Source: Cafeteria roenbergensis
Lineage: Eukaryota; Sar; Bigyra; Bicosoecida; Cafeteriaceae
Reading direction: 5' to 3'
DNA length: 64,000 nt
Assembly (NCBI GenBank): GCA_008330645.1
Contig: VLTN01000059.1
Location: 124,001-188,000, forward strand
Numbering within the stretch: position 1 is the stretch's first letter; every line of letters starts with the position of its first letter. A program made the translations under genes and the position numbers. Below the pieces are notes generated by a model that saw nothing but the letters and a program-made list of their open reading frames with translations, was not told the origin of the DNA and did not search any database. This document shows positions 19,527-61,521 of this stretch, in pieces.

Positions 19527-19657
19527 TGCGGTGGTGACTGCGTGCGCGTGCGATGCCTGCCGCGCTGCATAGCAAGTGCATTGGGACCCACTCAGAGGGC
19601 CGGACCTCACGCAAGCACCGCCAGCGAAGCCGCTCTGGCCGCCGCAACAACCCTCAC

Positions 19658-25984: not shown

Positions 25985-26151
25985 CCTGCTGGGCCGGTGC
26001 GTGCCCGGGCAAGCGTCCCGCGGGGCCCGGAGCTCGCCGCCCTGGCTGCCCATCAGTTGCACTGGCCGAGCGAGCGAAGGCTCTGCCGGGCGGGAACCCC
26101 CAGAGCTGCGCAGGCGCACCCGGCTTGCCGTGAGGCAGCAAGGATCCTGCC

Positions 26152-36175: not shown

Positions 36176-36506
36176 CAAGCGCCCTCGCCGAGAAGCTGGG
36201 TGCACTCGGGTGCGCGGCGTGCGTGTGCAAGTATGTGTGTGTGAGCGTGTGCGCGAGCGCGCGCGCGTGCTGGCCCAACCTGCTGTTCATTGGCAACACG
36301 AACCGCCGGCCAGCTGCTGGCCAACCCGGTCCGCGAGAGCGAGTGCGGCCATCACGCGCCCGCAGCTTGACAGCGACCCCACAGCTTTCGCGCCGGACAG
36401 GCGCGCTGCGGCGCCCCGGGTACATCGGGTTCCTCCCTTGTTCGGCTGGGCCGGCGCGGACTCGCACTGCTGACTTGCCGCGAGGCCTCCGTTGGGCTGC
36501 AGCGCC
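36176..36506. other. intergenic region with GT-rich tract
   Basis: This 331 bp spacer lies between two genes on the same strand. It holds the 3' GT-rich tract of the ankyrin gene (36199-36270) and the COX10 promoter. No gene is visible. Confidence 0.5.
36199..36270 (+). promoter_or_regulatory. GT-rich 3' tract of the ankyrin gene
   Basis: The sense strand reads tgcgtgtgcaagtatgtgtg and continues as GT and GC alternation, starting 24 nt after the stop. It belongs to the class of sense-strand GT tracts that follow many stops in this window. Confidence 0.45.
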
Positions 36507-38201
36507 ATGCTCGCGCCCCTTTCCCGCTTCGCCGGGCGGCGCGCGCTGCCGCGCTCGGCGGGCGGTTGCCTGAGGGAGCCCGTGCTCGTGAGGCAAGCAG
36601 GCCCAGGCCGCCAGCGCCTGGTGTTTCCCGCCGTGACCTTCTCCGTGGCCAGCCGGGCGGGCGGGAGCGGCACCGACCGTCCGTCAAGCGCCAATCGGAC
36701 CGCAACTCCGGCTTGGTGCGACCTGAGCGTCAGCCCGCTGGCGCCGGGCTCCAGGCCGGTATCCACGAGCGCCCCCTTGTCGATGAGGGCGAGTGCGGCT
36801 CTTGCAGCGGCGGATGAGCCGCAGCAGCTGGGCGCGTCTGGCGCAAAGCCGCCGTCCGCCCGCCCGCTCACGATTGGCCGCGCGGTGCGCATGTACAACC
36901 AGCTGTCCAAGCTCAAGCTCTCAGTCTTCGTGACGGGCACTGCGGCACTTGGGTTCCTGACCGCCGGCCCGCCCGTGTCGGTCCCGGCGCTCATCGGCGT
37001 GACGCTGGGCACGTACCTGTGCTCCGCCTCGGCTGGCACGTGGAACCAGCTGTACGAAATCAAGAACGACGCTCTCATGTCGCGCACTCGCGCCAGGCCG
37101 CTACCGTCGGGCCGCATGTCCAAGGCGCACGCGGCCACGTTCGGCGCGGTCGCCGGCCTCTCGGGCGTGGGCCTGCTTGCGGTGGCGTGCAACCCGCTGA
37201 CCGCCGCGCTTGGCGCCGCAAACATCGGCATTTACTCCCTCATCTACACGCCCATGAAGCAGGTGTCCTTCCTCAACACGGAGGTCGGCGCCATTGTCGG
37301 GGCCATCCCTCCCCTGATGGGCTGGGCCGCGTGCACTGGCTCCATCACGGCAGAGCCCGCCGGGGCGGCGCTCTTCGCTGCTCTGTTCCTGTGGCAGATG
37401 CCCCACTTCTACGCCCTAGCGTGGCGCCATCGCGCCGACTACGCGCGCGGCGGCTACGCCATGGTGTCCAAGGACGACCCCGACGGCCGCCGCACCGCCA
37501 CGCGCACGCTTGGCTACTCGCTGGGCCTGCTGGCCTTCCCGGTGGCCACCACGCTGGCCGGCGTGACGTCGCCCATGTTCGTGGTGGAGGCCACTGCGGC
37601 CAACACCCTGTTCATGCACAAGGCCTGGCGTTTCTACCGCGACCCCTCCGACGACACGGCGAGGGGCGTCTTCTTCGCCTCGCTGTGGTACCTGCCCGTC
37701 ATCATGTTCTTCCTCATGTTCCACTCGCACCGCTGGCGCTCCGCCACCGACGCCGAGGACGCCAGGGAGCTGGGCGAGGCGGTGCCGGCCGTGGAGGCGA
37801 GAGTGGGCGAGGGGCAGGGCGAGGTGCCCCAGTGGCTCGAGGAGGTGGACATGGTGCTGGCCACCGCCTTCGCCGACGACCCGGTCTCGCGCTGGGTAAG
37901 CGAGAACCTCTCTGGCGCCGCCGCCCGCGCGCGCCGTGTGCTCCGCTCTCACTGCCCCCACGAGATCCTCACCTCAGCCCCGCGCGTTGGCGAGGGCAAC
38001 GAGACGGAGGGGTCCCTTTCCGTGGCGAGGGCCTCAGCGGCGGCCGGCGAGTGCCCCGTGTCCCACAACCGCGGCTCGTCCGCCGCCGTGGACGCCCTGG
38101 GCAAGGTGCTCCCCTGCCCGGTCAGCAAGTCTCAGCAGCAGGTGGCTTCCGTCCGCAGCGCCGCAAAGGGCTCTGCGGTTGCCACCTCTGAGTCCCTCTA
38201 G
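36507..38201 (+). CDS. COX10: protoheme IX farnesyltransferase (heme O synthase) COX10
   Basis: A single exon gives 564 residues from the ATG at 36507. The N-terminus (MLAPLSRFAGRRALPRSAGG) is a good mitochondrial presequence. The UbiA-family membrane core spans about 130-415. It has the first Asp/Asn-rich motif N-Q-L-Y-E-I-K-N-D-A followed by MSRTRARPLPSG, then YTPMKQVSFLNTEVGAIVGA, WQMPHFYALAWRHRADY (the COX10 W-Q-x-P-H-F signature) and YAMVSKDDPDGRRTATRTLG. The enzyme attaches farnesyl to heme B to make heme O, the precursor of heme A for cytochrome c oxidase, in the inner membrane. A C-terminal extension of about 140 residues is unusual. It contains three Cys-Pro dipeptides (SHCPHE, GECPVSH, LPCPVSK) resembling heme regulatory motifs. 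A GT-rich tract starts 16 nt after the stop. Confidence 0.95.
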   Translation: MLAPLSRFAGRRALPRSAGGCLREPVLVRQAGPGRQRLVFPAVTFSVASRAGGSGTDRPSSANRTATPAWCDLSVSPLAPGSRPVSTSAPLSMRASAALAAADEPQQLGASGAKPPSARPLTIGRAVRMYNQLSKLKLSVFVTGTAALGFLTAGPPVSVPALIGVTLGTYLCSASAGTWNQLYEIKNDALMSRTRARPLPSGRMSKAHAATFGAVAGLSGVGLLAVACNPLTAALGAANIGIYSLIYTPMKQVSFLNTEVGAIVGAIPPLMGWAACTGSITAEPAGAALFAALFLWQMPHFYALAWRHRADYARGGYAMVSKDDPDGRRTATRTLGYSLGLLAFPVATTLAGVTSPMFVVEATAANTLFMHKAWRFYRDPSDDTARGVFFASLWYLPVIMFFLMFHSHRWRSATDAEDARELGEAVPAVEARVGEGQGEVPQWLEEVDMVLATAFADDPVSRWVSENLSGAAARARRVLRSHCPHEILTSAPRVGEGNETEGSLSVARASAAAGECPVSHNRGSSAAVDALGKVLPCPVSKSQQQVASVRSAAKGSAVATSESL

Positions 38202-38603: not shown

Positions 38604-39807
38604 TCAGGCTCGCGGGTCGTAAGAGTCATCGTCGGCAGCCGGGCCCTCAAGGCGCCGTGCAGGCGCCCCGACGCTAGGCTGGCCGGACTGCGACTGCCGC
38701 CGGTGGCTCGCAAGCCCGCGCTGCTTGCGCCTCGACATGCGGCCGCCTGGGGGCAGCATCAGCGTGCTGTCCGCGTGCGAATGATACCTCACGGCGCGAA
38801 TTCCTCGGAGGCACATGCGGAACTCGCCCTTCACCCCATCGGCAAGCACCACGGAGAGCTGCGGGGGGCGCGAGCACAGCCGAAGCGGGCGGTGGCAGGG
38901 GGGGGGGGGGGCGTTTGCAGCCCGCGAAACCGGCGTCACCAGCAGCACATGCAGCAGCAGGGCGCGAAAAGGCGGCAGAGCACGCTGCCCGCTCACCGAC
39001 TGCAGCGTGGAGGGGTCCGGCCCCCTGAACTGCGGGCCGAGCTCGTCCTCCTCCCGGGGCCGCTGGGACACTGTGACGTGGCCTCTGTCCACGCGCAGAA
39101 ATGAGTCAAACGGCGCGGTGGCGGTCACCCAGCGCCCTCCAGGCACGCACAGCTCACACTGCCACGTGTCGACGGCGTTGAGAGCCTGCGCCTCGTCCAA
39201 GTGGGCCTCGTACGCGTGGCTGCGCGTCGTCAGCAGCACCACGTACGGACGCCCGTCGGTCTTGACCTGAAACTGCAGGCCGGAGAAGGGCGCAAGGTCC
39301 GGGAGCGGGTGCTGCACCTTGGTGCGAAAGCTCGCGTAAGTCGCAGTCCTGCCGTCCGTGGACTTGAAGAGCTCGTCGTCGTTGCGAAGCACCCCCTCGA
39401 ACACCCCGATGACGCCGTCGCGTGTGTCCTTGACGCCGAAGCTGCAAACCGTCATGCCGCCGATCGCGCGGTCGGTGGCAACTTCGAATTTTCCGATGTC
39501 GGCCAGCGAGTCGAAGCGAAAGAGGGGCGCGTCGCCGAGTGCGGAAGGCCAAAAGGCTGCGGCCGCGAAAGACAAGTAATGGCGCCCCCACACTCGCTCA
39601 GGTTCTGCCCGCGCACGCGCAAACGAGGTACTCTCGCGGCGGCAGCTCGACGCACCCCCATCCCAACCTCCCAACACTGGGCACACACTTGCACACACGC
39701 AGCCGCTCCTCACTGGCCGCCAGCCGAGCGCCGGTCGTGCCGAGCACCTCGAGCGGCCGCATCGCCGTGGCCCAGGCCACGCGGACGGCGGTGGCCAGTC
39801 GGCCCAT
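38604..39807 (-). CDS. CIA30/NDUFAF1-like complex I assembly protein, copy 2
   Basis: Three exons (39807-39714, 39556-38997, 38858-38604) join with matching phases (1 and 0) across GTGAGG...CAG (157 bp) and GTGAGC...CAG (138 bp) introns and give 302 residues; human NDUFAF1 has 327. Exon 1 encodes a presequence-like N-terminus (MGRLATAVRVAWATAMRP). The CIA30 domain covers about 40-245: LFRFDSLADIGKFEVATDRA, IGGMTVCSFGV, GVFEGVLRNDD, LQFQVKTDGRPYVVLL, then VVLADGVKGEFRMCLRGIRAV from exon 3. A basic tail follows (SRRKQRGLASHRRQ). It likely aids complex I assembly in the matrix. It differs strongly from CIA30-1, so the duplication is old. Intron 2 has a C12 run about 40 nt before its acceptor. 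The start is 220 bp from that of the divergent PTPMT1-like gene. Confidence 0.88.
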
Positions 39808-40027
39808 GGCAGGAGCCGCCCAAATAGCCTCCCGGCCGCGAGACTGGTCGAGGCCGGGCCGGCCGACTTGTGTGGCGGCCGTGGACCGCGCGGCCGGCCG
39901 GCAGAGCGCTCTCGAGCAGTAGCAAGCGCCGCGAGCGCCACAACTCGGGCCGCCGCCGCCGCAGAGATCCTCCGCCACCCTCGCGCCTTCCCAACAGCGA
40001 TCAGCAGCGCGCATCAAGGCGGTTGTC
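39808..40027. promoter_or_regulatory. divergent promoter region, CIA30-2 / PTPMT1-like
   Basis: These 220 bp separate the start codons of two genes that both act in mitochondria, which would allow joint control. The region is GC-rich with cgccgcc-type repeats and no clear TATA box. Confidence 0.4.
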
Positions 40028-41803: not shown

Positions 41804-44800
41804 ATGGACCAGGACGAAAGGCGGCCGCTCATCGCCGAGCCCGCCGCCGGGTCCGCCCGCAAGGCCGCCGAGAACAGGCCAGCAGCGGCAGTTCATGACG
41901 AGGAGCTGCACGGTGCGGCCGACTCAAAGCGCGCCCCATCCGCCGAAGGCGGTCCCGAGCTTGGCTGGCAGCAGCAGCAGCATGCCGAGCCAGACCCCCG
42001 CGCGGCGTACCACGGCGCCGGCGATGCGGACTTGCAAGGCCCGGACGGCGCAGAGGAAGCCGATTTGGCCGGCCTCGACGAACCCGAGCATGTCGAGCAC
42101 GATTTGATGCTGGAGGACCCGGGCGTGACCATCTGGGAGGAGTTTCAGGAGAAGCGAGACCTCAAGGCCGCGCCCTCGCTGGCCAACAGCTTCCTCATCC
42201 TCGCGCTGACGCTCTCGGCGCTGTGGCTGGCAATGCTGCCTGCCCGCCCGCTGCCGTGGAAGCACTTTTTCATCGAGCCCTTTGGCGCCCCGGTGCTCTT
42301 GGGCTGCATTGTCAGCTACGGGGCGGCCCTCTACGTTGCCAGCAAGAAGTGCGCGCACTCGCGCTTCTGGCGGCCGCTGAGGCTTCGGTTCGGACGCGTT
42401 GCGTCGGCGTTTGCCGGACTCGGCGCAGGCGCGATGTTCATGTCCTACGCGTTTTCCATCCAGCTCACCGCGTGGGCCATGGATCTCGACCTGGACCAGG
42501 CGTACGCCCTGGCTGCAGGGCTTCGGGCCCCCGATCCGACCAACGAGGCCCAGGTTGCATGGGCTGGGGACCTGACCACGTTCTTCGTGCTGCGCTCGCG
42601 GAGCAACGTCTTCAGCCCGCACACCCTCGCGGTGCTGCTGGGCATCCCCATGCTCGTGCGGCCCCTCATGCTGCGCCAGGTTGACTTCGTCATCTTCCTG
42701 GTTTGCTTGGCGCTGGTCTGCCTGGCGGGCGTCATCGTGCGGCTCTACCTCATTGCTCCCAAGTGGCGGCTCCAGTTCCAGCAGAACGATCCGTGGCTTG
42801 ACGACTCCGACAGCGGGGTCTTTGCCATCGTGCACCTGGCGCTCGTGTTCGTGGTCACGCTCGGGCTCTCGTACAGGCTGGTGTCCCAGCGGGAGGACCA
42901 GGCGTGGGGGGGATTCGTGCAGCGGAAGCGGCTGCAGCTGCAGGCGATCCGGGCGGAGGAGCTGCTCACGCTTGCAATGCCTCGCCAGATCGCCCACCGC
43001 CTCATGGCCGGCGAGCTGGAGCAGCGGCACTACAAGTCCGCCTCCGTTGGCTTCATCTACATCGCCGGGTACAAGGACCTGGTTTACGAGGCCAACGACG
43101 ACTTGCTCGGGCTCGTGGACGACTTGCACCAGCTCTACTGCCGCTTCGACGCGCTGGTGCTGCAGCACGACTCAGTGTACAAGATCGAGAGCGTGGCCAA
43201 CTGCTACATGGTGGCGGCGGGTGAGAATCGCGCGACGCCCCGCCCCGTTGGCCGCCCACGGCGCCGGCGGGAGCCTCGTGCTGCGCGCGGGTTGCGCTTG
43301 CGTGCTTGAGCCACGAGTGCGTGTGCTGGGCCAGGGGGGGGCGCGGGAGAGGGAGAGAGGGGGAACGTTGGAGCCGGCTGGGATCGTCGCGCCGATTTGG
43401 CGTGGCGCGGGTGGCGGCGGCGCCTGCTGCGTGATCGCGTGCCCTCTCGGCATACCTCGCCTTGCCACCACCCCTGCGCGTTGCGTCGCTCCTCGCGTTC
43501 GCAGGTATTCCCGACGAGGCGGAGGATCACGCCCCCGCCCTCCTGCGATTCTGCCTGGCCGCGCTGGAGCTCTGCAGGCACCTGCGCAGGGCCGACCCGG
43601 ATATTGACTGGAGGCTTAAGATTGGCATCCACTCCGGGTCGGTCACCTCAGGCGTTGTGGGCCTGAGCCGGACGTTCTTTCGGCTCTTCGGCGACACGGT
43701 GAACACCGCCAGCCGCATGGGCACTCGCGGCGAGGCGGACCGGGTTCACATCTCGGCGAGCACGTACAGACTCGTGGGCACGCCCCCGGTCATCAACCCG
43801 CAGGTGGAGGGCGACGACGAGGTGCTGGTGGGCGAGGGGGGCGAGGAAATGGGCCGCCACTTCGTGTTCGGCAAGGTGGAGAACACGCTCGAGCTGCTGG
43901 TGCTGCCCCCAGAGGAGGTGCTGTTCGACCTCAGGCCGGACGGGTCGGAGTTTGGGGACGACTCGGAGTCGGAGGCCGGCCTGCCGCTGCTGGGGTACAC
44001 GGTGGAGGCGCGCGGCGAGATCCCGGTCAAGGGCAAGGGCATGATGCGAACCTACTTCGTGGACCTGCCCCCCAGCATATGGGGGGACGAGGACGACGAC
44101 CTGTACTCGCAGTCCGACTACACCCGCTCGGGACCCTCCGACGCTGGCGCGGACAGTGCCCGTGGCAGCCCCGATGACGTCACAGCCCGCCCCGTGATGG
44201 CGGGGGCGAGGGAGGGGAGCCTGGCGGACCAGCTCGTGCCTCGCCAGCCGCCCGCGCTCGGCCTTGCCGCGCAGCCCACTGCGTCTGATGACCGGGACAG
44301 CAAGCAGCGCTCCATCAGCGGGGACTCACGCACCGGCTTGCACCACGCTGTGGGGGCATCCGACATGGCAGACAGCTCCGTCGCCTCCGTGTCGTCCGAG
44401 GCGCGCGGGTCGAGCCGGGCCTCCCAGCGCAGGATGTCGGGCGCGCAGTACCCTGCCAAGTCGATCCGGCGCGTCACGAGCCGGCCCAGGCAGCAGCTGG
44501 AATCGCCCTCGGCTCCCCGCTCCGCAGCCGTTCAGGACGCCACCGCGCCCATGCAGGACAGCCTGGGGAGCGTCTCTCAGATTCGCTCGCTAGCGGCCCG
44601 CGCCTTGGCTCACTCGGGCGCGGGGTCGCCGGGCAAGTCGCCGCCCAGCTCCCCGGCTGGCGCCTACCTTGGCCTGGCGCTCGGCCCCACCATTGCCGCG
44701 CTGTCGGCCGTCAGCAAGATGCGCCGCCGCCGCGCCTCCCAGACGACGCAGAGCCGCCGAGGCCGCGCGGACGCCCCTGCCTACGGGCAGGTGTCAGGGA

Positions 44801-47800
44801 GGGGCGTGATGGGCCCGGGGACCCCGCTGCAGTCGCCGCAAGCCCCCTTCGCGTCGTCCGAGGCAGGGTCGAGGCCGCGCGGATACACGGGCTTCCTGCT
44901 CATGCCCGGCGCAGCAGCCGCCGGCATGCCCCTGCCAGCGCCCTCCCCGCGGGACCGATCCGGTTCGAACAACCGACGGCCCTCTCACAGAGGCACGCGG
45001 GGCGGCGGCGCGGGGTCCAGTGAGGCCCCGTCGCGCTCCCGCGCCTCGGCCGGCACGCCGAGAGGCCGGCCGGCCACGGGCTTTGACCCCGCCCGCCAGG
45101 TGGCGCCGAGCCCCTCGGGAAGCGTTGCGTCGTCCGTGGGAGCGGACTGGCAGGGGTCCCAGGGCAGAGCTGCTCGCGGGTCCATAGCCCGCAGCGCCGC
45201 TTCCCACCGCAGTCGAGCAACGCACGACCTCACCCTAGACATCAACGAGCTCTCTGGCCAGACGTCGACCCGGCGCCTCCTGGCCGCAGCGAGCATGCGC
45301 CGGCCCAAGTACCACCGGTCGTCCTCGACGCCCCGCCGCGACGCGCGCGAGGGCTTTGCCCCCAGCCTGGAGCAGTCTCGGCGCTCGCTCTCCAAGGACG
45401 CTGCCGAGGGGCCGTTCTTCCCGTCAAGGGGGGACGCCGGACTCTTGTCAGGCCCGCCGGAGGACGACGACTGGGACGCAACGGACAAGGCCGGCCGCCG
45501 TGCCAGCGTGAGGCTGCACCGCCGCCAGCAGTCCGCCTGCACCCCCTCCACGTCGGCGCAAGGGCTGTTCCCGCCGCAGGCGCTTGCGCGGAGCGGCGTG
45601 ACGCCCGCGATGCTGGCGCAGGTGGCGGGCGGCGCCCCCCCCGTCCAGGGCCTCAACTCGGACGGGACCTCCTTCGTGCCCCGTCGCTCGAGCCTCATTC
45701 AGCAGGGGACGCTTGCCGGGGAGCCTCTGCGGCCGAGCGCCTCCTTTGCCGTCACCTCCACGCTGGACAGGCAAGGGGCCGGCCGGGGAGGCGGGCTCGA
45801 CAGCGGGTCCCGCCCCGAGGGCAGAGCCGGCGATGACAGGGCGACCATCATCAGCGCATCAACGGGGGCTCGCGTGCGAGGAATGGGCAGCATGGAGCCC
45901 GAGGAGGACTCACGCCTGGCCGGAAACACGGACGTCACCGATGCTTCCCCGACCCAAAAAGCGCGTGTTTTGCGTGGCCTCGGCTCTGCCGACCGCTCCC
46001 AGGACCTCGACGCTGGGTCGCACAGCCATCATGGTCGGTCCATTTCGCCAGAACGCGGCCAGGTGGGCCTGCGTTCCGACACGTTTTCCTCGTCGGGGCC
46101 CGAGCAGCGCACCAGCAGGGCGCACGAGGGCAGCGGCCGAGACACGGCCGCCGGCCAGGACCCCATCCGCACCGGGTCGGCCAGGGCCAAGTTTGCGGCC
46201 GGGTTCGACGCCCGGGCAGCGCTTGGCAAGTCCGACACCGAGCTGTCCGCTCAGCTGGGCGACGGCCCTGGAGCCGCTGCGCAGGCCGGGGACGCACACG
46301 CTGACGAGCTCACCGGCGACCTCGGGGCGACGGCGGGTTCGCTCGCGGCGGCGGCGAGGCGGGGCGATCCCAGGGCGCTCTGGGCCCGCCGCAACAGCGA
46401 CGGGGGCGCCCTGCTGACGTCTCTGCAGGTTGACACGGCTCTGCAGGCGGCGCGGCAACTGCTGAGCGTGCCCTCTGGTGACGGCCTCGTGGACGTGACG
46501 TCTGGACGCACGGACGACGCTGACGGGCAACACGGCGTTCAGGGCGGCGACGGGTCCGGGCGCGCTGGCAGAGGCTCCGCATCGGGGAATGCGCCGTTCC
46601 ACGAGCTGGGCCCGCGCAGTCCGGTGCGAGGCGACGCTGGGTGCCTCAGCCCCCAGCACGCGCACGCGCCGCGCGGGCTGCGTGTCCAGGCGTCGGTGCA
46701 CCGAGGCGCTGCGTTGGGGATGGCTCACCGGCGCGCCACAGGAGAGGCGAGCCCAAACGCGAGCGATGGGGGCGACGCGGTTTCGGACGCCGGCAGCGGC
46801 ATGGAGGTTGGCCGAGCGTCGCTGTCTCCAAATGCGCAGCTGCACCGACGAGCCATCATTGAGGCCAGGGCCAAGGCAACGGCCAAGAGTGCGGCGCAGG
46901 GCGACGGCCCGCTAGGGGCGCAGCCCCGGACCGCGATGGTGGTGGACCGCCCTCGTCGCCAGAGCGAGGGCAGCATCACCCAGAGCCGCGCGACGTCCAT
47001 CCACTCAGGGAGGGGGCTCGGCTCCGACCACACAGTGGAGTCCCAGCCCGGGGCAGCAGCGTCCACGGCGTCGCGCGCCGAGGAGGATCGCACGGCGCTG
47101 CCAACGGCAAGCAGCCCCCCGCTGTCCAACGCGCAGGACATGGCGCCTGCGTTCGTCATCGGCGCCAAGGCCGGCCCTGGTGTCGTTTCGCCGAAGCAGC
47201 AGCCGGCTCGGCCCGCGGCCGCCGTTGTTGCCCCTCGCATGGGCGAGATTCGCAAGCGGGGGGATGCCGCCAGGCGGCTGTCGCAGCAGCGGCTGGAAGA
47301 GGCAAAGCGGCAGCTGGAGTCCGCCAAGATTGCGCACACGCGAGCGGTGCTGTCCGGTCGCGAGGTGGTGATCCAGGAGGCGCTGGCAGCGGCGCAGGCG
47401 GCCGAGGCGGCGCTGCTGGCCGCGGAGCAGGAGCTGGCCAACGCCGGCACCTTCAGCTCCAGCGCGCCGCAGATGGGGCCGGACGGGAGGGTGGTCCGGA
47501 GCCCCGACAGCGGCAGCAGGCACAGCGAGCCCAAGGACGCTCCTGCCGCTGTGCAGATCGCCGCCGCGGCAGCGCGCGCGAGGCACATGTCCGCGTCCAG
47601 CGCGGCCGTCCGCGGGCAGGGCGCGACCGGTCCAGGCAGCGGGGCGGCGTCGGGCCAGGCGGGCGCGTGGCACGAGCCGGAGGCCGGATCGGGGGACGCC
47701 TCGGCTTGGCGGTCGCCGCGCCGGGCGTCCCAGCCGCTGCCCACCGACGTGCGGCTTGCCCGGATCAAGCGGCTGGTCGCTCTGAAGCGAGACATGTCTC

Positions 47801-50800
47801 GGCGCAGGCGGGAGCGGCGCCGTCAGAAGGCAGAGGATGCCGCGGCGGCGGCAGGCGGCGAGGGAGAGCGCGCAGGCGACGCGTCGCTAGCACCGGCGGG
47901 GACGACCCCACCGCGGGCAGCAGGCGGCTTTCACCAGCCACCGGCGCTGCACGTCCACAGCTCCAGCCTCAGCCCGAGGCCCGATGCGAGCCAGCATCCC
48001 ACGGGCGGCCTGCGGCAGGAGGCGCTTGCGGCGGCCGCAACGGCCCCGCAGCGCGGCGAGCGGCACCTTGGTCCGGACGGCCTTGCAGCCGTGAACAGCT
48101 GGGCCACGTCCGTGGCCGTGAGAGACTCCCCGCCGACGGCGGAGGCCAGCGCCGCTGCGGCCACCGGCAAGCTCCATCCAAGCACCGCGCGCGCGTCGAC
48201 CCACCGCAGGCGCCGGCGTCGGAGCAGCGCAGTCGTGCAGAGCCTGGGCGTGGAGGTCGCGGACGCGCTCGACACTGCCCGCGCCATCGGCGCCCTGGGC
48301 CAGCTGAGCCGGCTCGCCAGCCAGGACAGCACCATCCCCGGTTCCGAGGGAACCACCGTGGCCCCCAGCAGAGCCTCGCATCTGGACCGCGCCGGCCGCC
48401 CAGAGCGCGCGGCCCGGGCGGAGCGGGCGCGGATTCACGTGCTGCAGCGCCCGGGCAAGCACCACAGCGGCAAGCGGCGTGCCATTCCGCTCGGGTCCTC
48501 CTCCACGGGCCGGAGCGCCTCCGAGGGTATCGACGACAAGGCAACGGCGGGGCACCCCTCCGCGCCTCTGGGGTCGCCGAGCGACATGACGGCTGCGGGG
48601 CTGGCGTCGAACAACAGCGCCGACCCAACGGGCTTCGCCTCGGACGCGCTGGGCTCCGGCGAGCACGACCCCAACGCGTCTCCACCTGCCTCCGCTGCCA
48701 GCCAGGCTGTCTTCGGCTCCCGAGGCCGGGCAGGCCGGGCCACCGGCGGGCGGTCGGGCTCCGGCCGCGAGGACAGCGCGGGGCGGCCCCGCTGGGGCAC
48801 CCTCTCCGGCAGGGGCTCGAAGGGGGCGGCCGGGCTGGTGGCAAGCGACAGGCAGCTGGGGGGCTCCGAGTCGAGCGTGGGGAACGGCAGGTCCTCGTCG
48901 ACGTCCTCCTCGGGGGGCTCGTCTGAGGAGGGCGCAGGTGGGCGGCGGGGTCGAGCTCGCCGGGACAAGGAGCTCGGTGGCCGGGGGGGCGACGCAGCTT
49001 CCGACTCGACGGACGGGCGGGGCTTTCGCCGCGGCGCGGCGGGGCGCCACGGCGGGCACCGGCTCAAGGCGACGACGCAGGGCAGCGTTGCTGCCGGCGG
49101 CTCCGCGGGCGGGGACGCCGCGTGCCAGACCGCCGCCACGCGGGGCGCTACCGGCCGAGCCCTTGCAGCGGCAGGCATTGTCGCGTCCAAGGCGGGCCGG
49201 TCGTCGGCCGGCGGCCTGGGCGTCAGCCGCAGCAAGGCGGCCGGCAAGGAGGCCATCGACCGGCTGCTCCATGCCACGCACAGCGGTGTTTCGCCGGGGG
49301 CGGCGGGCGCCCGCGCTCGCTTGGCTTCCACGGGCAGGCACTCAGTCTCGCACGTGGAGGTGCCTGGCCAGCGGGCCGCCACGCGCCTCGCGGCCACGAT
49401 CAACACGGGCACAGCCGGCAGGCGACACAGTGTGGACGACGCCGCGATTGCGCGCCCGGCGCCTCTGCGTCTGGAGCGTTCCCTGGGGGTCGACACCCGC
49501 GGCCAGGCCGGCACGCGCCCACGGTCGCAGAGCGAGCAGCGGCGTGTCCTGGCGGGCCGCGTTAGCCCCGCGCTGCCGTCGCCCCGTCACGGCGCCAGCC
49601 TCGGCCCCGGCCTCGGCTTGGCAGCCACGGCCAACCCCGACGTCCCCCCGCGGCCGCGCCGCTCCTCCCGCCACCTCTCGCGCCGCCTCTCGCGGCGGAT
49701 GTCTAGCCAGGGCCGGGCGACGATGTCGCGCCGCCTCTCCCGCCGGACGTCAAGGGCGAGCGGCACCGGCGTCGCTGCCGGCGTCGGAAGCCACGTGAGC
49801 GGGTCGGGGGCCCACTCGGTGACAAGGGGGAGCCGCGGCGCGCTGCAGGAACCGGGGGCGGTGGCGGCGCACTCGAGCCGCCACGGGGCGACAGGGCGAG
49901 GCAGCCCCGCCCACGCCTCGGCAAAGTCTGTGGCTGGGGCGTCAGTCACCAGCGATGTCCACGGCCGGAGACGCCGGACCAGCGCGTCGATGCACGGCGC
50001 CTCCGTCGAGGAGGAGGGGGGCGGGGGCAGCCGGGCTAAGGACGGCGTGATGGAAACGGCCCAGGGCTTCCGGTTCGCGCAGATGCTATCCAGGGTGGCC
50101 GGCGAGCTGCTGGACGTGCCCCCTGACGAGGCGCTCATCGCATACCGGTACATGTCGGACCCGGTGACGGCCCGGTGCACCAACCACTTCATTCGCACGA
50201 TGGAGAAGGCCTACCTCATGCGTTACCAGCAGCGCGCGCTCAAGCGGCAGCTGGATCTCAGGGCGCAGGCCAAGGCGAAGCGGGCCTTGCGGCGGGCCGG
50301 GCGAAGGGCTGGCCGGGCGTCGAGCGCCCAGCGGCGCGCGGGCGGCAGCAGCGCGCGCAGGTCGTCCAGCGGGCGGCGCACCCGCCCCCACGGCGCAGGC
50401 GCGTGGTACGGCGACGCAAACCCGGGCCAGGAGGCTGGGGATGCGCTGCTGGCCCTGCCCGGCAGCTCGTCGCGGCCAACGCCGCGCAAGGGGATGGGCG
50501 GGTGGTTTGGGAGCTCGCCGGCCCGAGTGGCGCCGCTGGCGGCTGGGTCCGGGGCAAACGGGGGCTCTGGCGAGGACGGCGAGTTGGGCCACTCCCAGCT
50601 CGACGCCGACCGGGGCGAGCGAATCCGCGTGGGGAGGCGAGGGAGAGGGTCGGGTTTGGCGGACCGCGACTCCAGTGCCAGCCACGGCCGCGGCGGCAGG
50701 CCCTCGCGGTCGCGGTGTGGCAGGATTGGCAGGCGGACGCATGCCCGCTCACAGTCGGGCGGGGGGCGGCCCGACTCAGTCTCGAGCAACTCCAACCGGA

Positions 50801-51489
50801 GCGGCGGCGGGTTGGGCCGCCGCCCCAGCTCCAACGGGAGCGACGCCAACCCGCGGGACCGGCGCAGCAGCCGGCGCCAGCACCGGCGGGGCGGCCGGAG
50901 CACCCAGTGGTCGTCGCGCCACCGCTCTGGCAGCTCCTCCGACGAGGACGACGACCTGCTGCCGCTGTCCAAGCAAGCAGCCCTCCAGGCCAGCAATGAC
51001 GCGAGGCTGCGCCAGCTGACCGACCCGTCGTTCAAGCTGATGCGCACGATGAACAAGCGCCGAACGTCCCAGCTCGGGCTCGACGGCGTCTTGCAGCAGC
51101 GGCCGCTCGAGCCCGCTGGCGGAGGCCACGGTGTCGGGTCGGGCGGCAGCGGCCGCGAGCTGCGGCCCAAGCGGTCTAGCAGAGCGGCAGACCCCGGGGA
51201 GGCGGTGGAGGCAGTCTTTGGGCGCGCCGCTCGCGACTCCATCGCTCGCAGGGCTGCCAGCGGCGGGGCGGAACCGGGCAGCGGCGCGTCGTCGGGCAAG
51301 GTCGTGCCCCCTCCGCCGCCCCGGGCGCCCTCGGGAGCATCAAGTGGGCGGGCGCGCTCTGCCGCAGGTGGCTCTGCCGACGGACGCCAGTCGGGCCAGG
51401 CGCCTCCACCGCCCGAGCGAGCTGGCGAGCCGTCCCCCGCTTCAACCGACCGCAGCCAGGCAGCAAAACTGGGGCCGGTGCCAGCGCCA

Positions 51490-51546
<57 letters not shown>

Positions 51547-54500
51547 AAGCAGGCGTCCTCTCCCCCGGGGAGCGAGAGCAGGAGGTCGACCCGTGGGCGC
51601 TCGCCCCCGGCAGCGGGCGGCCACTCAAGCACCGCCCGTGTGGATGCTGCCCGCCGCGGAGCAGCCAGCGGGCGCGGCAGGCCCGGGGCCGTCGCTGGCG
51701 GCGCCGACGCTGGTGCTGGCAGCGCCAAGCCGGGCGCCACGGCCGGGCGCCTGCAGGGCAGCAAGAGGAGCGTGAGCCCCCTCAACTCTGTCACGGGCAT
51801 GGCCGCCTCTGTGCAGAGCTCGCAGAACAGGGACCATGCGGGTCCTGCCCGGGGCACGGCGGGCACCATGGGGCAGCGCCGGTCGTCCCGCACCCGTCTC
51901 GCAATCCGACACGCCCAGGCGGAGATGTCGCTGCAGACCCAGAAAGTCAAGCGCGCTCTCAGCTTCCGGCCGGAGCCCGGACCCGCACGGCGGCGCGGAG
52001 GCGGGCCTCGTGGAATCGTCGGCAACACCTCAGCCGGCGGGGACTCGGCCGGCGAGGCCGCCGGCGTGGAGCGAGGGCTGGGCTCCAAGGCCAGGAGCGG
52101 AGTTGGCCCGCTCCTGAGCGAGCAAACCAGTGGCCAAACGTCCAAGCTCGGCTCCAAGCGGACCCGGCGCACCCGCCGCCGCGAGCCTTCGCCGCAGAAC
52201 GCCGCAAACCTCCCCGGCGCCGTTGGGTTCGGCGCCTCGTCGCTGGCAAAGGTGCTCGTGGCTTCCTCGACGCACAAGGAGCGAGGCAGGGGCCCCCACC
52301 CTGGCAGGCCAGAGCACGGGGCGAGCTTCTCCAGCGGGGGCACCGGCCTCGGCCAGTCCGACAGCGAAACGAGCGGAAACGGGCGGCAGCGGGCTCCGAG
52401 CGGGGCGGCACGGGGAGGGGTGTTCAAGCGGCAGGTGGCGACGACCTCCGTCGCCAGGGCGGCTGGGGACAAGGGCGGCAGGTCCAGTGCCGACGGGCCC
52501 GCCTTCGTGGAGCCCCGGTCCGCGCTTGTGCCTGCCCACTCCAGCAACGGCCGCGACGGGAGCAGCTCCCGCGGGGACGGCGCCGGGTCGGCCTCGTCCA
52601 GGGGCCGTCCCGGCCTCTTCGGCCGGCTGTTCCGCGCAGCGTCCGGCTCCGGAGGCCAAATGGGTGCCGTCTCGCACCGGGCAGACGGCGCGATCAAGAC
52701 TCAGCGGACACGCGGCAACGACCGTTCGGTGCAGAACCTGCGGCACATTCTGGAGAAGGAGGAGGCCGCGGACCAGGCCACGCGCTTGGGCATCGACGGT
52801 CCTTCCGCGACGGGGCACCACGGGTCGGAGGGCTCTGCCATGAGCGTGGGGGGCGAGCGCATGGGCGGCCGGCGCAGCGGGATGATGGCTCTGCCCGGAG
52901 CGGCCAGCATCGAGGATGGAGACGACGACCGCACGTCGATGCATCCCGAGGCAAGGTCCAAGGCGGGCGAGCACCTTCGGCCACGGTCGGCAGCGGAGGG
53001 GCGGTCCGGGACAGTATCGTCTTCCAGCAAGTCCGGGGTGCTGGCGCGTGGCACGTGGGGCTCCTTCTCCAGGGGCGGCGCGAGGCGCGGCGGCGCCCCC
53101 TCGGCCCTTCAAGCGTCCAATTCTGCAGCAGCCTCCGGCGCCGACGCCCTTCGACTTTCGACGGTCGACGAAGTGTCGCCCCCGCCGGTCAGCGCTGGCC
53201 CGGCAAGAGCCTTCGGCCGCAAAGGCAGCACAACGCCCGACGTGCCTCGCTCTCGCAAGCGCGACGCCATGGCCTCCGCCAGGCACGCTGCGCAGGCTGC
53301 CAGCAGGCAGGCGCCTCACACCGTGGCCTCGGGCCACCGAAGCCTCTCGGCGCGTGATGTGGCGGACGGTCGCCGCGCCCGCAAGCCAAGCCGGAAGCAG
53401 ATGCAGTCCGCGTCCGCCACCTGGGGCCGCTCTCAGCCGGTGGCCGCCGGGACCCGCGGCGCCGTCAAGTCTGACCTCGGCTCCCTGGACGAGCTTGTGG
53501 ACGAGGGTGTCGTCGACGACGACGAGGATGACGAGGACGAAGAGGACGACGCCTCCTTGGCGGGCAGAAGGCCGACGTTCCCGACGGCCGCCACCGCCAC
53601 GAGAGAGCGGGCACGGGCCGACGCGAAGCGGCGCACTCGTCGCGAGCGCCAGCGCCGCCAACGCGACAGCATGGACTACCTCTCAGTCGACGAGAGCGAT
53701 CTGTACTCGGAGTCAGAGTCGTCGTCAGATTCCTCCACCGTGACCTCTGACCGGTGGGACCGGCGCCGCCGGAGCCGGTCCGGCCGGAGCGCCGCCAAGG
53801 ACCGCTCTGCCGGCGGAGGCACCGCCGACGCCGGAGGCGGGTGGACCGCCACCCGCTCTGGGCAGAACCCCAAGGCGGCGGGCAGCGGGTCGACCCTCAA
53901 CTCTGGCAACTCCCAAACCCACTCTGGCGGCGGCGACCGTCATGTCGCGATGACTGCTGTCCAGGGCTCCGCCACGCGGACGCTGCGGCCCATCACAAGC
54001 TGGCGCACCCAGGCCGGGGCCTCGGACGGCAGCAGCCTTGCGGTGAGCAGCAGGGTGCCTGTGGCCACTGCCACGCCGCTCGAGAGCGGCCTGACGGCTC
54101 TGCGGCCGCTGCGGCTGTCCACCGGCGAGCTTGGATTGACGTCCTCGGCGGGCGACGGCCCGCCCTCCTACCAATGGCGGGGCGGCCACGGAAATACTGG
54201 CTTGAGGGGCGTGCGGGGCGGACCGCGCCCGTCTTCGATGGACTCAAGGGGCCTCCCCTCCGCCGCGGGCTGGGCCTCAAGCGGCGGCACCGGCACCGGC
54301 GCCCGCTTCGCCGGCAGCGCCCCCTCGCTCCAGGGCAGTCACGGGGAGTTCAAAGCTGGCTCCGGCCTCACACCGGCCATGGGGTGGGGCATAGGCGGAG
54401 GCTCGGCGGGCCGCAGCGTCGGGTTTGGCAGCCAGGCCATGGTGGCGCATGGCAGCGGCAACACGCACCAGGAGTTCCCGAGCCGCGCTCCCTTCTCCGG

Positions 54501-57500
54501 CAAGGCGGCGTCTCCAGGCACGTCGCTGCGGGGCGGGGTGATCCAGACTGCGTCCGGGCACCGCCTCCCTGGGGTCCCGTGGACGAAACCGCCGCTGCTC
54601 GCCGGGAAGGGCAGGGACGCGTCCGGCATCGGCATGTCGTCCCTGCAGCTGGCGCAGCAGCGCGCTGTCGGCTCGCCAGTGCCCGATCCGCCAGCAAGCC
54701 GGAGCGAACGGTCGGGGCGCCGGTGCCCCCGCTGCGGGGGCAGGTCCGGGCAGAAATCGCACCGCTCCAGCCGCGACAGCTGCTGCGGGGGCCGGGGCAG
54801 CTGCTGGCGCCGCTTCCGGCGTCGGAGGCGCCGCTTCTGGCGGCGGAACGTGACCCGTCCGCTGAGCGCGCGCTGGCAAGCGATCGAGGAGTGGTACTGG
54901 GGGCTGGACCCGCGCTTCGACGACGAGCACACTGAGGCCGTGTTCCAGGCGCTGCGCATGCGCCGCACCTACCGGTCCGTGCGCGGCGTCCTGCCCGTGC
55001 TTGTCGTCATGTCGGTCGCGCTGCTTGCCTTGGCGTCTCTGGCGCTGTTCAAGTACGACGCCTGGGTGATTCTCCCCCTCGTCACGGGCGTGGGCAGTGT
55101 CCTGGCGATGCTGCGCGTCATCCAGCGGCACTCCCGAGAGTTCAGTGACTCTCCCAAGGCCGGCCACGGGCTTGCATCTGCTGACGGGAGGACGCCCGCC
55201 GACTCGAGCCACAGGCACGCGCACGGCGCGGACGACGAGTTGGAGGATGCCATCGCTGGCGCCGCGGGCGGCGAGGACGTGTTCGACGCGACCGATGGGA
55301 TGTTTCGCGACGACGGCACGCTCTCCGGCGACCTGGGGGGCTTTGCGCAGGACGAGAGCCCCCACGAGGCGGCGCAGCGCGCGATGAACGCGGAGCGCCA
55401 GCGCATGTTGGCTGGGCAGCAGCTCGGCCGCGGCCAGGCCAGCGGCCCAGGCGGCCCATCGGCTTCAGCGAGCTGGCAGCAGGGCGGCGGGCACGACCAG
55501 CTTGTCGCTGTATCCTCGCAGCCGCTGGTGGGCGACGCGACGGCCAGCCACGGCCTGCTCCGCCCGCCGCCGCCCGCGCCGGGAGCCTCGCCGCGGCTGT
55601 TCGACGGAGAAGTTGGCGGCCAGCGGCACACGCCGCCGGACGCCAAGACGGCGCCGGCCAGCGCGCTACGCTCCCCGTTTGCGTACGGGCCACAGGTTCA
55701 GACGGCAGCAGCCGGCGAGGAGGCATTCCCCGAGTCTGGGTCGTCAGTCATCGCGATGACGCCCGACGTCACCGCGGCGTCTGCGCGGGGGCTGGTGCAC
55801 CTGCGCGTCTCAAGCGGTCGCGGGCGAGGCGACTCGGCCGCGCAGCCTCTCCTGCCCAGCCACGACGGCTCGATTGACAACTTTGCGCCCGAGGTGCTGT
55901 CGGCGCCCGTCGGCCACAGCGAGGCGGTGCTTGCTGCGGGCAGCGCGCTCTCGAGCATCGAGGGGGCGTCTCCGCGCGTCCGACGCGGCGCCCGGGAGAG
56001 CGGCCTTCTGCCGCGGTCAGCGTCCGGCGCCGGCGCCGGCGACGGCGACGGCCCCGGCGCTGGCCCCGGGGCGGTGGGGCGGCACAGGCCCACTGCGTCG
56101 GCGGCTTCCTCCTTTGGCAGGAGCGAGGGAGCCATCGGATGCGTGGACGGGTCGGCCACCCACTCGGAGGCGGCGATGCTGCGCGCCACCTCGGGGCCCG
56201 TCGAATCGCTTGGCGCCGGGCCAGCGGCTCACTCGCACCGGAGCGGGCATTCCCACGCTGGGATGCACAGCGTCCCCCGGCACAGCACGGCTACGAGCAA
56301 GCGCAGCAGTCGCAAGCCGCGCCCGTCGGTGGGCGGCGCGGCCACCTTCTTGACGCCCTCCTTGTCCGGGCAGGGCTTCGGCTCAGCGACGGCGCTTCCA
56401 GGCTTTGCGGAGCGGGGCGTCTCGAGCGGCGGCGTGCTCAACTCCTCCTTCACAGGCAGTGGCCGGGTCCGCCACTCGGCGGCCTCTGAGCTCCCGGGGA
56501 TCACGGGCCGGGGGGATGCTGGGTCCCTCGGCGCCGGGCAAAAGACACCGCACCGGGCGCGCGGATACACGGTGGACTCTGAGCTCTCAACCATGGTGGA
56601 CGCCGAGGCGCTGTCGCTTCGCGCCAAGGGCGCCAAGGCCGTGGCGAAGGGGCAGCGGCTTGGCGGGCGGGAGAGGAGCGGGTCGGGGGCGTTCAGCGCC
56701 AGCGGGTACTCCGACGGCAGGCGCAGCGGGGCGGGCGACAGCGGCTTCCGCAGCGGCAGCATGACGGTCAAGGGCAGCGCTGCTGGGGGCCTTGCCTCCT
56801 CGGGCAGCCCGCGAATGAGCCGATCTCAGACTGTGCAGCCCGGGGCCACCAGCGGCGACGGCGTTGCCTCTTCCAGCCCCAAGCGACGGCTTGCGAGGCG
56901 GGGGCTGTCCTCAGCCTCGCCACGCGCCCAGCTGCGCGCGGCTCCCCGCCAGAGACCCGCCGGCTCGGAAACCTCTAGCGGACACGAGGCGGGCGCGGCC
57001 GCGCAGGGCAGCTCCCCGCGCAACAGCGGCGGCAAGGTCGAAGAGCGGCACCCGCCCCCCTCGCCAGGGAACTCGGCCGTGTCCCGGGGCTCGCGCGTTT
57101 CCGCTGCGCTGCCCTCCGGGGCATCCCCCGCGCCCATCGACCGCGCGAGCGCCAGGAGAGCCCTGGCCAAGCGCCAGCAGCGCAAGCACACGAGCAGGGT
57201 GCAGGCCGGACGCGCAAGCGTGGTGGACGCCCTGGGAGCCGGATCCGCTGGCGTAGCGGCAAGTCCCATCCACCCCCTCGCAGGGCCGGCCGGCCGGTCG
57301 CCGCACTCTGGCCAGCTTGCCGCCGGCGCAGGGTCAGAGCACGGCTCGGACTCCTCGCGCTCCCACAGCGTGGGCCGGAGCGGCGTGGTGGGCGCCGCGA
57401 GCGGGTCCAGCAGCTTCGCCAAGGGCAACGTTGCCATGGTCTCGGGGAGGCACTCCGCCGCTCGGTCGCGCAGCTCCTCGCCCCGGGCGAGCGCGCACGG

Positions 57501-60500
57501 GAGTGGCGTCCCCCCTCTGCCCAGCGGGTCCCCCGTCCCCGCGCAGGGCGCGGACCGGGCTCGCTTGCGCAGCAGGAGCGGAGATGGCGCGGCGGGCCGC
57601 GTCTCGCCTCCCCGCCCTCGTATCATCGGCACCGACTCCTCGCATCGCTTTCCCGGTCACCGCATCGCTCACATCAGCGACGGGTCGGACGTCGCCGCGG
57701 AGGTCGGTCTGGTGCCCTCGCCCGTGGGCGACGGCGCCTCCGGCGCTGCGGCTTCCCCGGCAGAGGCCGTGTTCGGCTCCAAGGTGCGCGCCTCTCGCAA
57801 GGGCTCCCCGGTGCCGCTTCATCCGGGGGCGAATAAGTCCTGGGCGAGCGGCCATTTCGCGGCCGCCTCAAAGGACTCGCAGGCCCCCGACACCCCGGCC
57901 GACGGGCCGGACGCGGGCGGCCTAAAACGGCGCACGGCCACGGCTCCGCCGGGCGCTTCCGTGTTTGCGCTCCGCACCGTGCAGTCCGCGACGCTCACTC
58001 CCGCGGCCCGTATCCTGGAGGGAACTGAGATCGCCGCGAGCGGCTCGCCCCACGCGCGGCGCAACGTTGCGCTGGCGTCCGGCTCCTCCGGCGCGCTGTC
58101 CAGCATCGCGGCGCGCCAGGCAGCCGTGGCCGCGGCAGGGACATCGACGTCCGACATGTCTTCGCAGCCGACTGGGCCCATCGTGGCCTCCTCCGGAGGG
58201 ACGGCTCGTGGCGGCAGCAAGCTCGCGGGCAACTCGTCGGCGACCACAGTGCAGGGCTATGCCGACAAGCAGGGCGGCACGCAGCAGGGCGTCCGTCGCG
58301 GAGGCCGGGTCCCCCAGGCTCGGAGGCCGGGCTTCGGCTTTGAGGGAACGTCAGCATCGGACAGCCAAGGCCCGGACACCAGCGAGCGGGTGCCCACGGG
58401 CCCGGGCGGCAGCGCGGTGGGCTCCAGCATCGGCAGCGGCGACGGGCTGCGCCGGCAGGGCGGCGCGGCGGCGGGCGCGCAGAACCCGCGTCTCGGCTCC
58501 CCGGTGGATTCCACGGGCTCCCGGCCGCCGATCCGGATGGAGGCAGTCGCTGAGGCACCGGCGGGGACTGCGGGTCACAGCGCTGCCGGGCCGGCGGCCG
58601 GCGGGGCTGCTGCCCCGCTGAGCAGCGTTCGCGACCAAGCCGCAGTCGCGGCCGGCACGGACGATCTCGCCACCCCACCGGCGCCCGTGTCTGACCACGT
58701 TGCCCCATCGAGCAGGCCAGGCATTGAGCGGCCAAAGCTGGACATCGACGCGATGCACACGTCCGGCTCTGCCCCTGGCCAGCAGGGGGCGGGGAGGGAG
58801 CACCCCGCTTGGATGCACTCGCCGACGGGGCGCGGACCCGCCGCAGCCTCCCCAGGGCACGCCTCCCTGGGGCACGCCTCCACCGCGCCAGACCCTTCGT
58901 CCAAGTGGTCGTGGCGGGGGAACAGCCCGGCGAACCAGCGGCCCAACGGCATCGTCTTCGCGTCCAGGGTCGACCAGCAAAGCGCCCCGGTTCACAGCTT
59001 CGCAGAGTCCGGAGGGGGCGGCTCTGCCGTCCGCGGCGACCAGAGCACCACGGACGGCATCGGGCAGCTCCACTCGACCAGGTATGCAAACGCGCGCAGC
59101 CGTGCCTGGGTCGTGCGCCGCGGCGCCGCCCGCTCCACCGCCGACGTCGTTTGCGCGTGGCTTGCCGCCCGCTGCGGCGCGGTGGCGTCCCGCGTGCCCG
59201 GCTGCAAGCACGCGCTGGAGGCGGACGCCGTGCTGGCGGGCCTCGTCTTCATGCTCCACACGTCTGTTTGCTGCACAATTGTGGCCAAGGAGTTCCTCGG
59301 ATACCCCTCCATCGCGCCCATCGTGGCCGCCATGGGCGACGGAGGCCTCAACGACCCGCTCACGGGCGGCAGCGGCACGGCGGAGCAGGCCTCCCTCTTG
59401 TCCTCCCAGGCCGCCTGCGTTCACTCGGTGCCCGTGCCCCTGGTGTTCATGTTCGCTCTGCCCCTCCTGCCCTTCAGCTCGGGCGCCATGGCCACGCTCT
59501 CCCTCGGCGGCGCGCTCTCCGTGCTGGTCGCCCGCGCCATCTTCGGCCTCCTCGACCCTACCGCCTGCCTTCCGGCAGAGCTGGCTGCCACCGTCCTGAT
59601 GCTCTTCGTCCCCCTCTTCTTCGCCGTGTTCGACGCTGCGGGGCAGGAGTCGCAGGACCGCCACGCGCTCCTGCAGCGGCTCGCGTCGCGCCGCGCCAAG
59701 ACGCAGGCCGACGGCGTGCTCGAGCAGCTCCTCCCCACCCACGTGAACGAGAAGCTCCGGCGCAACGAGCCGGTTCCATTCGAGATCCACCCCAACGACG
59801 TGGTCATGCTTTGGGCGGACCTCGTCGGTTTCACGGCCCTGTCCTCGTCCCTGAAGCCGCACCAGGTGATGGCGATTCTGAACGCGCTGTACAGCCGGTT
59901 TGACGCGCTGGTGGAGCGCGCACACCTGTGGAAGGTGGATACGATCGGAGACGCGTATGTTATCATCGGCGGCCTGGTGGACAGCCACCAGCTGCGGCCG
60001 GGAGAGGCGCCCCCGCGCAGCGACATGCCAGGGCCCGAGCTGGTAGAGCGGCTCTTCGGCGTCGCGACTAGCATGCGGGAGCAGGTGCGGGCCGTGGCCC
60101 AGGCCACGGGTCAGGACATTGGTATTCGCATCGGCATCCACAGCGGGCCCGTCGCCACTGGCATCATCGGCACGCTGCGGCCGCGCTGGCACGTGTTCGG
60201 CCCCACCGTGCTGGAGGCGGAACACATGGAGAGCGAGGGCCGCCGCAGCTGGATCCAGGTGTCGGAGGCGGCATTCCGCCTCTACAACATGCGCGGCTTC
60301 AGCCTGGTGGAGCGCGTCCGACACCCCGAGGCGGTGGTCCGCCCCACCCCGCCGGTGAACGAGTACGGGGAGCCGCTGGCGCCCCCTCCGCAGCCGCGCA
60401 TCGCGCTCCCGCCCGTGGACGAGGCGGCGCTCCCGGGGCCGCTTCCCAAGTGGCTCGACGCCCAGGAGGCCGCGGAGGCAGCCGTGGAGGCCAGGGAGGC

Positions 60501-61521
60501 CGAGGCCGCCGCTGCCAACGGCGGCAGGCACTGGGTGCGGCCGCCCCGCATGGACGGGGCCGGCGCCATCTGGTCCTTCTGGCTGCACCCGAACGAGGGG
60601 CCGCCGGCGGCCTCGGCAGTTCCCGGCGGCGGCGGCGCCGGGGCGTGGGGCGGCCCCGGAGGAGGCAACTTGCCCCAATCCCACGCCCTGCCGCCCTCCC
60701 CTGCAACCGCTGCCGCCAACTTCGGCGACGCGCTGGCTCTGCCGCCGTACCTCACGGCTCTGGCACCGCCGATCGACCCCATGTCGGACGTTGCGACGCG
60801 CGCCGTGACCACGACTCACGTGACGCAGGCCGTGGCGCCCCCCATGCCACCAGCCGCCCCGTCCGCAGCATGGGCCCCATCGCCGCCGGGCGCCCCGGCG
60901 GGCGCAATGCAGACCAGCGGCCCCGCGTTCGCTGGGGCCAACAGCCCCCTGGCCCGGGCGCTGGCGTCCATGGCGGCGGCCGGGGGCGATTCCACGACCG
61001 GATCCTCGCCTCCTGGCATCGAGTGGGGAGCGCACGCGCCCCATCCGGCGGCGCGGCCGCGCATTGAGGCCCCTGCCCCGCCAAGCGGCCCCCGTGTCCC
61101 TTTCGGCGGCTCCCAGCCGGCGCCCAGCGCTGCAGGGGCGTTCACGGTGCCGACCATTGACACGGCCGCGTCACAGGCTGGCCAGCCCAAGCCGGCGCAG
61201 CTACAGGGCGATGCCCGGGCTGCTCGCGACGCCACTGCCCCTCCAGCCACGGGAGCAGCCTTCAAGGCCCGCGACCACGCCGCGGCCGGCCCCTCCGCTG
61301 CCGGCGGCCGCCGCGGGAGCGGCCCCGTCATCGGCCCGGGCGGCGAGCAACTCCGGCCCGCCCAGAGCAGTGTGCGAATGTTCCTGCAGCAGGGAACCCT
61401 CGCCAACGTGGCGCCCGGCCACCTCCTCGCTGCCTCGCGGGGCACTGCTGGTGTGGCGGGCGCGCGCGGCAGCCAGTCCCCCGAGGCAGCCGCCCCTGCG
61501 CCTGCGGCTCGCCAGCTCTGA
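41804..61521 (+). CDS. giant twelve-helix class III nucleotide cyclase
   Basis: Exons 41804-43220 and 43505-61521 join in phase 1 inside the first cyclase domain (YMVAAG to IPDEAEDHAP) across a 284 bp GTGAGA...CAG intron and give 6,477 residues. Order: acidic N-terminus; six hydrophobic helices (about 130-370); cyclase domain 1 (about 382-655, with LFGDTVNTASRM and ending VKGKGMMRTYF); about 3,600 residues rich in Ser, Arg, Gly and Ala; two helices (about 4290-4345); about 1,370 more such residues; four helices (about 5710-5855); cyclase domain 2 (about 5870-6060, with WADLVGFT and TIGDAYVIIGG); Pro/Ala-rich tail. Domain 2 has both metal-binding aspartates (Asp5911, Asp5955); domain 1 lacks them (Tyr419, Asn466) but keeps the transition-state Asn539 and Arg543, which domain 2 lacks (Leu6042, His6046). 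The two should pair into one active site making cAMP or cGMP at a membrane. Substrate residues are ambiguous. Confidence 0.88.
51481..51546 (+). repeat. GCGCCC hexanucleotide repeat in the cyclase linker
   Basis: About eleven units of gcgccc or a close variant encode an Ala-Pro run near residues 3132-3153 of the cyclase. Ala-Pro runs are stiff and extended. The pure repeat is prone to length change; steps of six bases keep the frame. Confidence 0.85.

Follow-up and report, generated by a model that had tools for sequence, protein, structure and literature searches.

The subject of this analysis is a membrane cyclase gene of Cafeteria roenbergensis, a bicosoecid stramenopile (PMC6972860), found within a window of 64,000 nucleotides (the whole stretch of DNA analysed, positions 124,001 to 188,000 of contig VLTN01000059.1, assembly GCA_008330645.1). 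With a probability that we put at about 0.8, the gene codes for a class III cyclase with 12 membrane helices, probably a guanylyl cyclase, in which the roles of the two catalytic halves are exchanged and one intact active site is retained. Both catalytic domains would fold against each other in a single chain, as they do in mammalian adenylyl cyclases, with the N-terminal domain supplying the transition-state Asn539 and Arg543 as well as the base-selecting Glu462 (with Arg532), and the C-terminal domain supplying both metal-binding aspartates and the gamma-phosphate arginine. The outcome would be one intact and one degenerate site per polypeptide, and the long low-complexity linkers may serve as tethers or regulatory surfaces. 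We infer the pairing of the domains, the activity, the use of GTP and the control via the membrane helices. The genome also contains 15 matches to phosphodiesterase (PDE) and 42 to cyclic-nucleotide-binding domains (some being pieces of one gene), which counts in favour of this reading.

The catalytic positions are named here after what we take to be the corresponding mammalian residues. Domain 1 has Tyr419 and Asn466 at the metal positions and keeps Asn539 and Arg543, and domain 2 has Asp5911 and Asp5955, spaced 44 residues apart, with Leu6042 and His6046 replacing Asn and Arg; a preliminary description of this DNA had named these residues and this spacing, and each was recovered at exactly the number given. 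Its further claim, that the losses are complementary and the order reversed, holds in an alignment of 41 domains, where the ten that this genome contributes are gap-free at all seven catalytic columns. These ten come from five membrane genes, and the other rows are six mammalian domains (AC5, AC8 and AC9), a single Chlamydomonas domain and 24 bacterial domains, hand-picked for phylum spread, and so non-randomly, out of at least 80 bacterial loci. The columns are judged to be right because 24 of 24 bacterial domains carry all the residues that a homodimer needs (Asp/Asp, Lys/Asp, Arg and Asn/Arg). In the mammalian sequences, Asp/Asp belongs to C1 and Asn/Arg to C2 (C1 of AC9 retains Asn, not Arg), and this mammalian-type order, with the metal Asp pair first and Asn/Arg second, is not that of the window gene.

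A profile search of the genome (36,303,456 bases, 167 contigs) with PF00211 gave 15 matches in six genes: C59 (the window gene), C46, C17, C104, C1 and C36. All five membrane genes, that is, all except C36, keep Asn and Arg in the first domain and have lost at least one metal Asp there (metal positions Y/N in C59, H/S in C46, Y/N in C17, E/S in C104 and D/K in C1; the start of domain 1 in C46 was taken from exons inferred from frames). Their second domains all keep both Asp and the phosphate Arg and lack the transition-state Asn and Arg, which are replaced by L/H in C59, Q/A in C46, V/A in C17, D/E in C104 and L/K in C1. Because complementary halves are consistently retained in five membrane genes, selection on a working pair is argued. 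This also bears on the alternative that domain 2, or the pair, is a pseudoenzyme with a regulatory role that makes no cyclic nucleotide. Such an alternative is suggested by Halocafeteria seosinensis, another bicosoecid. Some 10 membrane double cyclases have been described in it, with C-terminal domains that lack the purine and Asn/Arg residues and that the authors suggest to be non-catalytic (PMC5447177). That reading, as set out there, weighs the E/K and N/R residues only, but the metal Asp pair stands in five of five second domains of C. roenbergensis and N/R in five of five first domains, and neither would be needed in a dead pair; a pseudoenzyme is therefore considered quite unlikely. The Halocafeteria proteins are like the window gene in having two PF00211 domains in a membrane protein and in missing the C-terminal purine and N/R residues; the comparison is one of descriptions, and metal residues, reversal and ATPase go unmentioned in the signalling section of that account. 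The C-terminal loss described there corresponds to one half of the pattern reported here, so that another reading could be offered for domains taken as non-catalytic in PMC5447177.

The window gene was read by spliced translation of the DNA as two exons coding for 6,477 residues with one terminal stop (Table 1), and its ATG is the earliest in its open frame. The splice between the exons is a prediction from the DNA; in its favour, the corresponding stretch of paralogue C1 is intronless and can be aligned across the junction with no gap. Two genes could share a frame by chance, each domain having another partner, given that 3,694 low-complexity residues lie between the halves and that the single gene is known from DNA alone. 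This is highly improbable: exon 2 lies inside a frame of 6,019 stop-free codons, with a chance probability of about 10^-38 at its base composition, and each of the other five frames is broken there by 41 to 88 stops; the third-position G+C is even (0.81–0.91 in 21 of 21 windows of 300 codons of the gene, where the G+C of the whole window is about 71%); and C1, C17 and C104 hold both cyclase domains in one frame with linkers shorter than that of the window gene. Three antisense open reading frames (ORFs) over the gene were dropped as candidate genes, none of the three having a Pfam match at E 0.001 in a scan limited to the longer antisense ORFs.

Table 1. Features of the window cyclase gene (window positions) and of the ATPase-bearing paralogue C1 (own coordinates).
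Feature	Position	Strand	Remarks
Exon 1: N-terminal tail, predicted membrane helices 1-6, beginning of cyclase domain 1	41804..43220	+	
Membrane helices 1-6	42161..42868	+	hydropathy maxima, residues 120-355
Cyclase domain 1, first part	43025..43220	+	Y419 (43058-43060) and N466 (43199-43201) at metal positions; E462 at first purine position
Intron (predicted), 284 bases, GT...AG, within domain 1	43221..43504	+	paralogue C1 intronless here
Exon 2: remainder of domain 1, low-complexity linker, helices 7-12, domain 2, C-terminal tail, stop	43505..61521	+	
Cyclase domain 1, second part	43505..43776	+	R532 at second purine position; N539 (43702-43704); R543 (43714-43716)
Low-complexity linker, 3,694 residues	43888..54969	+	A/G/S/R-rich, no Pfam domain
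Membrane helices 7-8	54988..55095	+	two adjoining hydropathy maxima, residues 4301-4336
Low-complexity insert, 1,347 residues, between helices 8 and 9	55180..59220	+	
Membrane helices 9-12	59227..59631	+	residues 5714-5848, five maxima of which two overlap
Cyclase domain 2	59776..60324	+	D5911 (59818-59820); D5955 (59950-59952); L6042 (60211-60213); H6046 (60223-60225)
P4-ATPase domains and reversed double cyclase of paralogue C1, nearly all in one frame	C1:559429-569944		

By hydropathy, six maxima precede domain 1 and about six (2 + 4) precede domain 2, helices 7-8 and 9-12 probably making up one membrane block; three weak maxima within the linker (857, 1760 and 3375) and a further one in domain 2 were taken as noise. 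Mammalian membrane adenylyl cyclases have 12 helices, and the layout of the window protein is their plan plus very long inserts. Both domains belong to class III by Pfam Guanylate_cyc matches (E 6.6e-7 and 6.5e-21 for the two pieces of domain 1, E 9.6e-36 for domain 2), no other Pfam family being found at E 0.1 in the three pieces of the gene that were scanned, and the best PDB relatives reach E 6.5e-36 (domain 1) and 1.9e-30 (domain 2). An AlphaFold model of domain 2 and its last helices (window 59410-60429), built from an alignment of 23 bacterial relatives, has a mean predicted local distance difference test score (pLDDT) of 77.2 and a predicted template modelling score (pTM) of 0.57, with residues 1-27 below 50 and most of the catalytic core above 90. 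The PDB structures that Foldseek matches best to this model belong to class III cyclases, with human soluble guanylate cyclase in first place; the model supports the predicted fold of one domain, not the pairing of domains.

The predicted base-reading pair of domain 1 consists of E462 and R532, and the Lys/Asp pair of mammalian adenylyl cyclases is absent from it. Glu at the first purine position is the guanylyl cyclase letter, and the pair E462/R532 suggests GTP as the putative substrate; Glu/Arg can be seen as the charge-reversed Lys/Asp of adenylyl cyclases, in which Arg could donate to guanine O6. Among the paralogues, the pair is E/R in C46, E/K in C104, E/S in C1 and M/H in C17. An adenylyl cyclase, or an enzyme of mixed substrate use, would be compatible with an Arg, not Cys, at the second purine position and with AC5 and AC8 at the top of the PDB lists of both domains. 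However, AC5 and AC8 top both lists only because the scores of their two domains add up, and guanylyl cyclases score higher when single domains are compared: for domain 2, 101.4 bits for the Chlamydomonas guanylyl cyclase versus 62.6 for AC5, and for domain 1, a total of 109.7 in one stretch for the atrial natriuretic peptide receptor cyclase versus 63.5 for the better AC5 domain. In addition, the marker Lys of adenylyl cyclases is replaced by Glu in domain 1 of four of the five membrane genes, the window gene included, and the best Foldseek matches to domain 2 are guanylyl cyclases, so use of ATP is regarded as unlikely. Some observations nevertheless weigh against a reversed guanylyl cyclase that keeps one intact site. 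R532 at the second purine position is not the Cys or Ala named for guanylyl cyclases (PMC6592433), and C17 carries M/H, both of which make the substrate unsure; the first metal position in domain 1 of C46 rests on inferred exons; and domain 2, uninterrupted in the window gene, is broken by long inserts in C1, C17 and C46, three of its four paralogues.

The preliminary description held that the P-type ATPase-like region of the alveolate enzymes is missing here, and this is borne out: the gene contains no non-cyclase Pfam match at E 0.1, and none of the P4-ATPase matches of the genome (six to PF16212, five of them above the cut-off, and five to PF16209, four above it) lies on the window contig. 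Upstream, a dual-specificity phosphatase ORF ends at 40750, leaving only about 1 kb before the ATG of the cyclase gene, too little for a hidden ATPase. Paralogue C1, on the other hand, combines PF16212, PF00702, PF13246 and PF00122 with a reversed cyclase in one frame of 3,465 codons, directly preceded by a PF16209 piece, and it contains a DKTGT motif, which we take to be the P-type phosphorylation motif. The reversed membrane cyclases of this genome are one with ATPase (C1) and four without, and the contrast between the window gene and the alveolate enzymes therefore lies inside one genome. Both parts could be compared in one cell, that of a cultured bacterivorous flagellate.

The inverted order itself was said to be known from ATPase-bearing alveolate guanylyl cyclases, and the residues described for Toxoplasma agree with this: GC1 has N/R and GC2 has D/D and L/M, in an enzyme with inverted domains that is called alveolate-specific (PMC6592433). 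The alveolate P4-ATPase-guanylyl cyclases (Paramecium, Tetrahymena, Plasmodium GCalpha/GCbeta and Toxoplasma ATPaseP-GC), as they are described, have two six-helix blocks, to which the hydropathy maxima of the window gene may correspond, and share with it two cyclase domains and the reversed order; in the Toxoplasma enzyme the first purine position is likewise Glu, and the second domain likewise holds the metal Asp pair (PMC6592433, PMC5746546). Unlike them, the window gene has no P4-ATPase, Arg instead of Ala at the second purine position and very long low-complexity linkers. The fusion of cyclase and P4-ATPase has been called unique to apicomplexans and ciliates, the reason for it being regarded as an open question (PMC7858053). 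Mammalian AC5, AC8 and AC9 resemble the window gene in having two class III domains with complementary losses, but the order of roles is the opposite and the Lys/Asp purine pair is in C2. Dictyostelium GCA, described as a 12-helix double-domain guanylyl cyclase with no mention of an ATPase in that account (PMC1435932), may be an already-known ATPase-free reversed enzyme, a likeness drawn by description alone. The voltage-sensor cyclases of stramenopiles and alveolates were set aside as relatives, one cyclase domain being described for them (PMC12223298). Neither the reversal nor an ATPase-cyclase outside alveolates was met in the open-licence literature, in a search that left subscription papers outside and is accordingly weak on this point. 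Reversed order is thus already known, and what is new, as far as could be seen, is a whole reversed family in a stramenopile, with one ATPase-bearing member and four without ATPase, and the Glu/Arg pair.

As to the descent of the halves, it had been expected that domain 1 would group with C2-type and domain 2 with C1-type domains. In a tree with the seven catalytic columns masked, without the domains of C36 and with PDB relatives limited to AC5, AC8, AC9 and the Chlamydomonas cyclase, the best topology lacks that grouping, mammalian C1 and C2 being joined neither to second nor to first domains, respectively, although approximately unbiased (AU) tests do not reject it (p 0.22 for first domains with mammalian C2 and 0.37 for second domains with mammalian C1; none of seven groupings rejected, p 0.22-0.42). 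All five second domains fall into a single group with weak support (75/53), and the first domains into two; C59 pairs with C46 for the first (96/70) as well as the second domains (100/98), the first-domain join, among others, being flagged by the tree program as a possible long-branch artefact. Branches are long and the bootstrap had not settled. The sequences would be compatible with one order swap in a common ancestor as well as with opposite degeneration after a separate duplication. A reversal that arose independently of the alveolate enzymes, which would be compatible with the reading proposed for the window gene, finds some room in the deep branches, unresolved in a tree that held no alveolate sequence; it is doubtful, since C1 joins the reversal to an N-terminal P4-ATPase as alveolates do, and a double origin of both is unlikely. 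Shared descent is favoured, at least for the ATPase-bearing form, because reversed cyclase and P4-ATPase are united both here and in alveolates. The balance tips slightly towards reversed membrane guanylyl cyclases being an older family, common at least to stramenopiles and alveolates, that exists with and without ATPase, both forms being kept in this genome, the window gene as a free-standing member with a charge-reversed Glu/Arg selector.

The sixth gene, C36, was read by eye as a control. Both metal positions of its first domain are Asp, the codon for one of them lying upstream on a piece of its own, and Asn/Arg is missing from that domain but present in the second; the gene presumably resembles soluble adenylyl cyclase. 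As the five membrane genes are reversed and C36 is mammalian-like, both orders coexist in one genome, by family. On the minus strand (C36:323318-335416), the soluble-type double cyclase and two PDEase_I pieces share one frame of 4,033 codons, possibly a cyclase-phosphodiesterase fusion, and oomycete proteins with both kinds of domain have been described (PMC8115329). Among the membrane paralogues, domain 2 of C46 (C46:52001-62000) carries about 1,000 in-frame residues of low complexity that separate its metal from its transition-state motifs; the inserts in C1 and C17 fall at roughly this point too and are shorter.

Three cyclic-nucleotide-binding matches lie some 19 kb downstream of the cyclase gene in a minus-strand frame of 1,201 codons (C59:204474-205514), which, as a guess, might be protein kinase G (PKG)-like; frames with three such matches occur in C24 and C25 too. 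The window contains 121 ORFs of at least 200 residues, and 18 of them, beyond the cyclase gene and its pieces, were compared with Pfam in sets of 10 and 8 (the latter including the three antisense ORFs). On the minus strand, these neighbours include a 3,041-residue ORF with PAS and TmcB-type TPR domains (2111-11236), an ORF matching a urea transporter (22394-26119) and two CIA30 (complex I assembly) ORFs that stand apart by about 24 kb (12811-14418 and 38604-39941). The plus strand carries ORFs matching MORN repeats (13709-16123), IFT81 calponin-homology (17171-19537) and UbiA prenyltransferase (36492-38201).

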